Shown here: one piece after another, positions 3,126-5,666 of the stretch | Layout of the letters: every line of letters starts with the position of its first letter | Numbering within the stretch: position 1 is the stretch's first letter | Assembly (NCBI RefSeq): GCF_004122035.1 | Contig: NZ_SAXA01000004.1 | Span: 1-64,000 of the forward strand | Reading direction: 5' to 3' | Length of the DNA: 64,000 nt | DNA from: Ancylomarina salipaludis | GTDB taxonomy: Bacteria > Bacteroidota > Bacteroidia > Bacteroidales > Marinifilaceae | The notes under the pieces: generated by a model | The model's input: only the letters and a program-made list of their open reading frames with translations | What the model was told of the DNA's origin: nothing | Database searches by the model: none | Translations under genes and position numbers: made by a program

Positions 3126-4028
3126 ATGGCTTTTATTACTAAAGAAAAATTTTTGTCGAACGAATGGCTTTCTGCTTATACTTACCTTATTGTAGGGAGT
3201 ATTATTTTTGCTGTTTCCGACATCTTATTTGTAGTACCCTACAAATTAGCACCAGGGGGTGTATATGGTATTGCAACAGTTCTAAACACAATGTTTAGCT
3301 GGAAAATTAGTTATTGTACTTTTGCAATGGAGATTCCGTTGGTCATAATTGGTACAATTATTTTGGGTCCACGATTCGGGATTAAAACAATTGTGAGTAT
3401 CACTACAATTTTGGTGACAGTTTGGGTGATGGAAACTTTTATCTCTCCTGATTATGCAAAAGTAATTGCTGATCCAATGTTGAATACTATTGTTGCAGGT
3501 GTATTCTATGGTATCTCAATTGGTTTGATTTTTAAGTCGCGTGCGACTTCAGGTGGGTCTGATATTATCGCCATGATTTTAGCTAAGTTTACTAAAATAT
3601 CTTTGGGTAAATTGGTTATGATTGTAGATGGTATCATTGTTCTATTCACTCTTGTTCAGCCAACTGAAACTGGTGCAATTGGATGGGAGTTTGCCATTTA
3701 TTCACTAATTATTATTTATATCGAAGGTAAAATTATCGATATGGTTGTAAGTGGAGCTAGTTACCACAAAACAGTAATGATTGTTTCTGATAACTACGAG
3801 TCTATTGCTTCAAAAATTAAGAATGATCTTAAGCGTGGTGCTACGATTTTTCAAGGAACAGGAGCTTATTCTGGTGAGGAAAGAAAAATGGTTTATTCTG
3901 TAATGAGCCGTAGAGAACTTGAGATTCTTAAATTGCACATTAAGGAAGTAGATCCTGAAGCATTTGTTAATGTTACAGAAGCTAATGAAATTATTGGTAA
4001 GGGATTTCAGTCTTTGAATGAAGACTAA
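3126..4028 (+). CDS. YitT family inner-membrane protein (DUF161 + DUF2179)
   Basis: This 300-residue protein has five or six hydrophobic segments in residues 15-205, including the family hallmark KLAPGGVYGIA near residue 38 and the repeated-type FKSRATSGGSDIIA near residue 140, then a soluble C-terminal DUF2179 domain (about 215-275: RGATIFQGTGAYSGEERK..., a ferredoxin-like fold). This is the standard YitT architecture and length. The transported substrate of the family is not established. The gene stands alone between a promoter at 3028-3057 and a bidirectional terminator at 4050-4083. Confidence 0.92.
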   Translation: MAFITKEKFLSNEWLSAYTYLIVGSIIFAVSDILFVVPYKLAPGGVYGIATVLNTMFSWKISYCTFAMEIPLVIIGTIILGPRFGIKTIVSITTILVTVWVMETFISPDYAKVIADPMLNTIVAGVFYGISIGLIFKSRATSGGSDIIAMILAKFTKISLGKLVMIVDGIIVLFTLVQPTETGAIGWEFAIYSLIIIYIEGKIIDMVVSGASYHKTVMIVSDNYESIASKIKNDLKRGATIFQGTGAYSGEERKMVYSVMSRRELEILKLHIKEVDPEAFVNVTEANEIIGKGFQSLNED

Positions 4029-4098: not shown

Positions 4099-5319
4099 TT
4101 AAGCTTTTCGGTCTTCAGGTAAACCATATGTGTCAATCACATAATCAAGATCTTTGTCGCCACGTCCACTTAAGTTCACCAATATGGATTGTTTGGGATT
4201 TGCTTTAGCCAATTTAATCGCGTAAGCAATGGCATGTGAACTTTCCAAAGCAGGAATGATTCCCTCTAATCGGCTTAATTCAAAAAAGGCATCTATACAT
4301 TCCTGATCATTGATATGATGGTACTCTGCTCGTTTTAAGTCTTTAAGCATAGAGTGTTCTGGACCGACACCAGGGTAATCCAGCCCACTGGCTACCGAAT
4401 AGACAGGTGCAGGCTCACCGGCTTTATCTTGGAGGAGATAACATTTAAACCCATGAATCACACCCGGACTTCCCAGGCTAAGAGTGGCAGCATGTTTACC
4501 TTCTTTATCAATTCCTTTCCCGGCAGGTTCCACACCATGAAGTTTGATGTTTTTTTCATCGAGAAAAGCCGAGAAAATACCCATAGCATTACTGCCACCA
4601 CCTACGCAAGCAACAATATTGTCAGGTAATTCACCTGTCATTTCTTCAAATTGATCTCGGGCTTCGATTCCCACAACACGTTGGAATTCGCGAACCATCA
4701 TGGGGAAGGGGTGTGGACCAACGACAGAGCCAATACAGTAGATGGTATTGATTGGATCCTGAAGATAGGCTTGAAATGCAGAATCAACAGCTTCCTTCAG
4801 CGTTTTTAATCCGTGAGTTACGGGAACAACGGTTGCTCCAAGTATTTTCATGCGCATGACATTGGGATGTTCCTTTGCGATATCAACTTCTCCCATATGA
4901 ATCTCACATTCCAATCCAAAGTAAGCTGCTGCAGTGGCTAGGGCAACCCCGTGTTGGCCAGCACCCGTTTCAGCAATGAGCTTCTTTTTTCCCATATATT
5001 TAGCCAACAAAGCTTCACCCATGCAGTGGTTTAATTTATGAGCACCTGAATGGTTGAGGTCTTCACGCTTCAGATAAATGCGACCACCGTATTTCTCGGA
5101 TAAACGATTACAGTAGTATACGGGTGTCGGACGTCCCTGAAAGTGTTTTCGAATACTTCTGAGTTCTGAAATAAATTCATGCGATTTACTGATTGAGTAA
5201 TAGGCTTCGTTTATACGTTTCATTTCCTCTTCGAGGACAGGAGGAATAAAGCTGCCACCAAATTCACCGAAGTAACCTTTTTCGTTTGGGTAATTTTTAA
5301 AGTAGTTTTTAAATGTCAT
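4099..5319 (-). CDS. trpB: Tryptophan synthase beta chain, orphan copy
   Basis: This is a PLP enzyme of 406 residues that condenses indole with serine to make tryptophan. The N terminus has the [11 protein letters not shown] motif; the PLP lysine is K95 in HSGAHKLNH and the catalytic glutamate E117 in AETGAGQHG; the phosphate-binding loop is CVGGGSNA, and GVEPAG and SGRGDKD follow. The [15 protein letters not shown] and [14 protein letters not shown] segments differ slightly from the usual GAHKINN, GPHPYP and YLLQDE versions, so this may be a stand-alone paralogue rather than the operon copy. No trpA or other trp gene is adjacent. The gene is preceded by a leader peptide and attenuator (5358-5481), so its expression probably responds to charged tRNA-Trp. 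The function call is firm; the paralogue status needs the rest of the genome. Confidence 0.93.
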
Positions 5320-5357
5320 GGTATTTTGGTTTAAAATTAGAATCTACGATTTAGAGC

Positions 5358-5388
5358 AAAAAAAAAGACCTGCGAGAAGCAGGCCTTT
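5358..5388 (-). terminator. Attenuator terminator upstream of trpB (segments 3:4)
   Basis: On the minus strand GGCCTGC-TTCTC-GCAGGTC forms a 7-bp stem (one G-U pair) with flanking A-U pairs and then nine T residues. It lies about 40 nt before the trpB ATG and after the leader peptide ORF, so it is a premature terminator rather than the end of a gene. Confidence 0.85.
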
Positions 5389-5443
5389 GGTATATGAATT
5401 ATGTGTATATGGCTAACCCTTCTCGATATTTATTATTGAGAAG
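5367..5443 (-). promoter_or_regulatory. trp attenuator: alternative 1:2, 2:3 and 3:4 hairpins
   Basis: Minus-strand segment 1 CTTCTC (5443-5438) pairs with segment 2 GAGAAG (5424-5419). Segment 2 can instead pair with the CTTCTC inside segment 3 (5379-5374), with a further GCC/GGC pairing, which would dissolve the 3:4 terminator. The two Trp codons sit immediately 5-prime of segment 1 and the leader stop codon lies within the segment 2 region. This is the geometry of classical ribosome-mediated attenuation: stalling at Trp codons frees segment 2 and permits read-through into trpB. The pairings are seen in the sequence; the mechanism is inferred. Confidence 0.8.
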
Positions 5444-5481
5444 TTCCACCAAAAATTATTTTGTGTCATACATGTTTTCAT
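5413..5481 (-). CDS. trp leader peptide (22 aa, tandem Trp codons)
   Basis: ATG at 5481 opens a 22-codon ORF ending in TAG at 5413-5415. The peptide starts MKTCMTQNNFWW, with Trp codons 11 and 12 at 5451-5446 (TGG TGG). Trp is rare, so two adjacent codons in a tiny ORF just ahead of an attenuator-like hairpin upstream of trpB is very unlikely by chance. An in-frame stop lies a few codons upstream. A second in-frame ATG at codon 5 could also serve. No Shine-Dalgarno is evident, which is normal in this phylum. Confidence 0.8.
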   Translation of the reverse strand: MKTCMTQNNFWWNFSIINIEKG

Positions 5482-5666
5482 GCAGCAATGTTATCGCATT
5501 TTTTTATTAAAAACAAATGATCTACGAAAAAAAAGAACAATGGGATTGAAACTTAGGGCTAGGATTCGTATCTTAAAGAGTTGATTTTTCATAGTTTATG
5601 ACTTGGTGTTTGAGCACAAAATGATTTTGTAAGCTTAAGTTTGAATTTTGAGAGGAAATAAGACCG

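Follow-up and report, generated by a model that had tools for sequence, protein, structure and literature searches.

A probable tryptophan attenuator ahead of an orphan trpB gene in Ancylomarina salipaludis

An orphan trpB gene of Ancylomarina salipaludis is preceded by a leader that we read, with a probability of about 0.86, as a ribosome-mediated transcription attenuator tying the gene to the charging of tRNA-Trp. This reading builds on observed sequence elements, their conservation and their computed energies (Table 1). The window, meaning the whole 64,000-nt stretch of DNA analysed, carries the gene on its minus strand, and every element that a preliminary description had reported upstream could be read there directly: a 22-codon ORF with Trp codons at positions 11 and 12, a 1:2 hairpin, an alternative 2:3 pairing that uses the same GAGAAG, and a terminator tailed by nine U. 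The same description had placed these parts within 125 nt ahead of trpB; the 124-nt block itself is correct, but the U-run ends 38 nt and the leader ATG lies 162 nt before the trpB start.

Table 1. Positions of the trpB leader features in the window, and of structured RNA copies in other loci.
Feature	Position	Strand	Basis
Orphan trpB, 406 aa	4099..5319	minus	TIGR00263, 540.6 bits (cut-off 392.45)
U-tract, nine consecutive T	5358..5366	minus	sequence
Terminator hairpin AAAGGCCTGC-TTCTC-GCAGGTCTTT, -14.0 kcal/mol	5364..5388	minus	folding
Segment 3, CTTCTCG, terminator loop and top	5373..5379	minus	antiterminator partner of segment 2 (folding)
Leader ORF MKTCMTQNNFWWNFSIINIEKG, 22 codons plus stop	5413..5481	minus	sequence; WW kept in 5/5 species
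Segment 2, CGAGAAG	5419..5425	minus	GAGAAG (5424-5419) invariant; first C is A in G003
Segment 1, CTTCTC	5438..5443	minus	pairs with segment 2 without ribosome; invariant in 5 species
Regulatory codons Trp11-Trp12 (TGGTGG)	5446..5451	minus	sequence and conservation
Putative -7 box TAACATTG, one mismatch to TAnnTTTG	5486..5493	minus	TAACATT[G/A] in 5/5 species
Putative -33 box TTTG, presumably the Bacteroidota sigma-A -33 motif	5514..5517	minus	20-nt spacing to -7 box; TTTG in 4/5, CTTG in 1/5 species
Structured RNA copies (models R1, R2)	L126:1501-1568 (G000:C34:246780-246847)	minus	
	L017:1300-1365		
	L026:1310-1375; others		

With ample charged tRNA-Trp, a ribosome would reach the leader stop codon and mask segment 2, the terminator would fold, and the transcript would end at about position 5358. 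With charged tRNA-Trp scarce, the ribosome would halt at Trp11 or Trp12 and mask segment 1; segment 2, left free, would pair with segment 3 before the 3' arm of the terminator is transcribed, and polymerase would continue into trpB. An untranslated leader would form both 1:2 and the terminator, an off state. The promoter, leader translation, termination and Trp response in this scheme are predicted from sequence. In E. coli trpL a short leader ORF with WW is followed by 1:2, 2:3 and a terminator with U-tract. The trpB leader has this order of parts in common with E. coli trpL and its Rfam family RF00513, and differs from trpL in that its antiterminator takes the terminator loop and top pairs, not the 5' arm, and in that its stop codon is located past segment 2.

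The 141-nt leader has a minimum free energy of -32.5 kcal/mol (z -3.05; 1 of 200 shuffles was equally stable), in a structure that includes 1:2 and the terminator. The three states of the leader were folded by masking an assumed ribosome footprint. When the ribosome was masked at Trp11 or Trp12 and the RNA extended out to segment 3, the 2:3 antiterminator formed (-11.5 kcal/mol, and -11.9 five bases further). Masking at the stop codon left no structure ahead of the terminator (-14.3), and with no ribosome the complete leader folded into both 1:2 and the terminator. In masked folding, then, 1:2, 2:3 and the terminator exclude one another and are placed for a ribosome to choose among them. The antiterminator, which uses the terminator loop and top pairs and leaves the terminator 5' arm unpaired with segment 2, is at these energies less stable than the terminator (-14), and when a stalled ribosome was combined with the complete leader the terminator was again the minimum (-15.9). 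Antitermination must therefore be kinetic.

As a chance test we searched for TGGTGG in ORFs that begin with ATG and reach a stop codon within 75 nt, with a hairpin at least as stable as -12 kcal/mol and a U-tract no more than 150 nt further on; the 1:2 and 2:3 pairings were excluded from the criteria. Only the trpB leader qualified among the 23 TGGTGG sites on both strands of the window, and none of 20,000 dinucleotide shuffles of the 300-nt trpB upstream region did so.

Five Ancylomarina genomes, A. salipaludis included, were compared by mean pairwise identity, with gaps scored as differences. Identity was 58.2% far upstream and 70.0% in the promoter stretch, rose to 90.3% in the leader ORF, 91.2% from its stop to the terminator and 92.9% over terminator and U-tract, and was 85.3% between U-tract and trpB and 55.3% at trpB third codon positions. 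The short ORF, predicted to be translated, kept its WW codons in all five genomes. Trp and stem codons were invariant while the encoded amino acid varies at codons 16–18, within the 1:2 loop, which indicates that it is the RNA with its Trp codons, not the peptide, that is conserved. Given the shuffles, the five genomes and the three-state masked folding, the trpL-like design of Trp leader, 1:2, 2:3 and terminator proves to be real. One detail speaks against the attenuator reading: the 2:3 helix has 6 bp rather than 7 in one genome (G003), whose trpB upstream region is identical to that of Ancylomarina sp. DW003 (L042). Alignment of relatives had been proposed as a check for conserved WW codons and compensatory stem changes. 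The codons are conserved throughout the genus, but compensatory changes were absent and the comparison uninformative, since 13 of the 14 pairs counted never vary and the other, a terminator pair, is G-U or A-U through a one-sided change; and the leader was not found before trpB in 19 regions (16 distinct) from sister genera.

The stretch between U-tract and trpB needs no attenuator structure, so its 85.3% identity suggests that some of the conservation may stem from something else. It would suit a terminator that closes a separate tiny unit, with trpB expressed constitutively from its own promoter downstream, and in A. salipaludis a near match, TAATTTTA, lies 20 nt before trpB. We consider this arrangement improbable: the near match was not found in the other four species, TAnnTTTG was absent between terminator and trpB in all five, 38 nt leave little room, and a plain terminator would not need segments 1, 2 and 3 and the WW codons to be invariant.

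Ahead of the leader, four bases separate the putative -7 box from the ATG at 5481, and from the position of this box transcription is predicted to start at about 5481, on that first ATG. For the TAnnTTTG consensus and the placing of the box at -12 to -5 we follow the available portion of PMC9723704. Because the predicted start coincides with the first ATG, codon 5 (5469), a second in-frame ATG that is ATG in all five genus genomes, may be the true leader start. Inspection of the sequence found no Shine-Dalgarno-like stretch before either ATG, a difference from E. coli trpL and RF00513, and the start may be leaderless. This uncertainty over where translation begins, leaderless at ATG1 or at ATG5, is a point against the attenuator reading. 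In a group mostly lacking Shine-Dalgarno signals, the leader would serve as a test of transcription-translation coupling.

At gathering thresholds no Rfam family, T-box families included, matched anywhere in the window. A permissive scan of positions 5300–5560 returned 15 matches, the top two scores being those of RF01692 Bacteroid-trp (34.5 bits, E 0.016, gathering 49) and RF00513 Trp_leader (30.5 bits, E 1.4e-4, cut-off 41). Both fall below their cut-offs, which counts against the attenuator reading. Within the family, 6 of 56 genomes matched RF01692 at E <= 0.1, one of them above cut-off; the six include the A. salipaludis leader and its G004 counterpart (37.8 bits). Neither RF01692 nor RF00513 appeared at E 0.5 or better in a permissive scan of nine other loci, among them trp operon leaders and two candidate attenuators described below (L034 and L102).

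The leader might instead be a ligand- or protein-binding RNA, which would account for the stretch past the leader stop: at 91.2% this is as conserved as the leader, exceeding what plain attenuation needs. We think this very unlikely, as no Rfam family reached threshold in the window, the 15 permissive matches held neither a riboswitch nor a T-box, and the Trp codons are placed so that stalling masks segment 1. Just as remote is a leader that encodes a functional micropeptide, or a short RNA working in trans, with trpB control as a by-product: peTrpL of Sinorhizobium meliloti, a Trp leader peptide, is reported to have a trans function (PMC7298713, in the portion available), but here codons 16–18 vary in amino acid while stem nucleotides are constant, and the leader position and terminator suit cis control of trpB.

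Attenuators of the kind we propose are already known in the phylum, as RF01692 and published predictions attest. Bacteroid-trp is a row in Table 1 of a 2010 survey (PMC2864571), and a 2019 paper likens its structure to that of the E. coli leader and states that it is conserved upstream of the trp operon in F. psychrophilum (PMC6414381); a 2021 transcriptome paper reports strong indications that leader peptides act by attenuation upstream of amino-acid operons (PMC9723704), each of the three being cited for its available portion. To the predicted leaders in these sources the present one would add a clean trp attenuator. It is like Bacteroid-trp in belonging to the same phylum and in being a Trp leader-peptide RNA, and differs in preceding a lone trpB, not a trp operon, and in its sub-threshold score. 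The preliminary description had implied that classical attenuators are rare in Bacteroidota; this was too strong, since an Rfam family is known there and the genome's own trp operon has such a leader. What is new is a second attenuator in the genome, before a separate orphan trpB; among the titles and abstract openings listed from open-licence papers, none describes such a leader ahead of an orphan trpB in Bacteroidota.

The word orphan is true of the gene's place, between a GNAT acetyltransferase gene pointing away and a gene for a YitT/DUF2179 membrane protein converging on trpB, but a second trpB, about 50% identical to the orphan, belongs to a trp operon elsewhere in the genome. ARAGORN found no tRNA genes in the window. 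By sequence, the best solved match of the orphan TrpB is 5ey5_B, LBCA-b, which we take to be a reconstructed ancestral TrpB. The genome also encodes a tryptophanase (TnaA; NF053783, 888.8 bits, cut-off 750), so that the orphan enzyme may reasonably be assigned to the recapture of indole when Trp runs short; it likely serves to make Trp from indole and serine at such times.

The operon appears to be complete, trpE-G-D-C-F-B-A, where names other than trpB come from ORF reading only. It has its own WWW leader, MNASVCKFWWWHNTNLSNTLSRNVRPICKI, with a terminator and TTTG and TAnnTTTG boxes (L004:1126-1281). Should the trpB leader act as proposed, the trp operon and a separate trpB would be controlled within one cell by two Trp leaders that are unrelated to each other. 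The two are alike in their Trp-rich leader ORF, terminator and TTTG and TAnnTTTG boxes, and differ in showing no significant sequence similarity. Searches with nhmmer, using 5 or 14 trpE leaders, gave E values of at least 0.012 against the orphan leaders (a search of 11 sequences), hence no sign of recent copying from the operon leader; an origin as its copy is unsupported.

A search with the TrpE of this operon matched in 29 of the 56 family genomes. WW or WWW leaders stand ahead of trpE in 23 of these 29 loci (21 WWW, 2 WW), so this clade uses this mode of control. The remaining six trpE loci, at 52–61% identity, comprise one with a W-x-x-W ORF, four with no such leader, and one fragment without upstream sequence. 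At five canonical family trpB loci (L036, L038, L039, L040 and L041) it is trpB that a WWW leader precedes instead.

Orphan trpB genes of this lineage occur widely: among 584 matching places, the 80 best cover Bacteroidota, Spirochaetota, Colwellia, Thermodesulfobacteriota and other groups. We collected 121 upstream regions (110 distinct) of orphan trpB genes with an identity of at least 66%; eight were shorter than 350 nt and two of those were empty. By our test a terminator was present in 26 of the 121. A W-x(0-2)-W ORF occurred together with a terminator in eight (the five Ancylomarina genomes, DW003, L034 from G053 of the same family, and L102 from a Bacteroidales MAG) and without a terminator in seven. 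L034 and L102 are candidate attenuators, like the A. salipaludis leader in having a WW or WRW leader, a terminator and three-state folding; they differ in that their sequences are unrelated and their trpBs fall outside the Ancylomarina TrpB clade. Both share the caveat that the complete leader with a stalled ribosome folds as terminator. The L102 candidate lies at about 3780-3930, before its orphan trpB.

A quick tree built from 105 TrpB rows, supported by SH-aLRT only, placed the Ancylomarina rows within a 24-row starred clade (98) and L034 and L102 within another starred clade, of 34 rows (98). Inside the latter the two are separate on the best tree, by unstarred branches (80, 84), the L034 branch being long. 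These positions indicate that Trp leaders before orphan trpB were probably gained more than once. With a leader, none, or a different RNA before relatives of one gene, this is a compact case for the origin of ribosome-sensing leaders. A wider reading is possible, although we hold it to be doubtful: attenuators of independent origin, two or more by the starred branches and three on the best tree (in Ancylomarina, G053 and L102), would have brought a separate, indole-using TrpB lineage under the control of tRNA-Trp charging, with an unrelated, undescribed structured RNA before the gene in close relatives. The gene for indole recapture would then be one whose regulatory RNA is readily gained or exchanged while its enzyme stays unchanged.

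The structured RNA came from the sister-genus set of 19 regions (16 distinct), of which 17 are from genomes of g9-g12 and g14 and two from named records, Labilibaculum manganireducens and Marinifilum breve. A WW leader before the orphan trpB was absent from all 19 regions, and each carries a 66-nt structured RNA there. A TAnnTTTG box lies 32 nt upstream of the RNA, as it does in 23 of 23 copies examined, and a further TAnnTTTG lies between the RNA and trpB in seven of the 19. In an alignment of 13 sequences, four of them from Ancylomarina, every sequence keeps the same 15 pairs, and four of the 15 pairs show changes on both sides in some sequence. In four of the five Ancylomarina genomes the RNA lies 213–410 nt before an L-serine ammonia-lyase gene, for which TIGR00720 was run on the A. 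salipaludis protein only.

No Rfam family matched the structured RNA at gathering in five trpB-linked loci, and a permissive scan of the A. salipaludis copy gave one chance-level match (E 4.7). Single copies were present in 21 of the 56 family genomes. A class search found A. salipaludis alone among 395 genomes, and an order search found A. salipaludis and G175 among 247; we set aside the G175 match (E 9.5e-4), which lies inside a coding ORF. The first model had three weak matches among 79 sources, the best at E 0.018 (L083), and the second one match, at E 0.31, among 57 sources. According to these searches, convincing copies are restricted to the family. Three features keep us from claiming a riboswitch for serine, which trpB and sdaA share as a substrate: in Ancylomarina the RNA carries a separate terminator, sdaA there has a TAnnTTTG box to itself, and each genome has a single copy, at a place that differs between genomes. 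A free-standing small RNA is as likely as a serine riboswitch.

Two further observations concern the movement of orphan trpB genes. The orphan trpB of Colwellia (L077, L078 and L079) nests among Flavobacteriaceae in a starred clade of 10, which suggests transfer between phyla. The trpB of L017 (G050:C1:602499-603695) groups by its coding sequence with Ancylomarina, at 93% identity, while in its upstream region and gene neighbours L017 follows the sister genera; this mismatch suggests recombination near the gene start.
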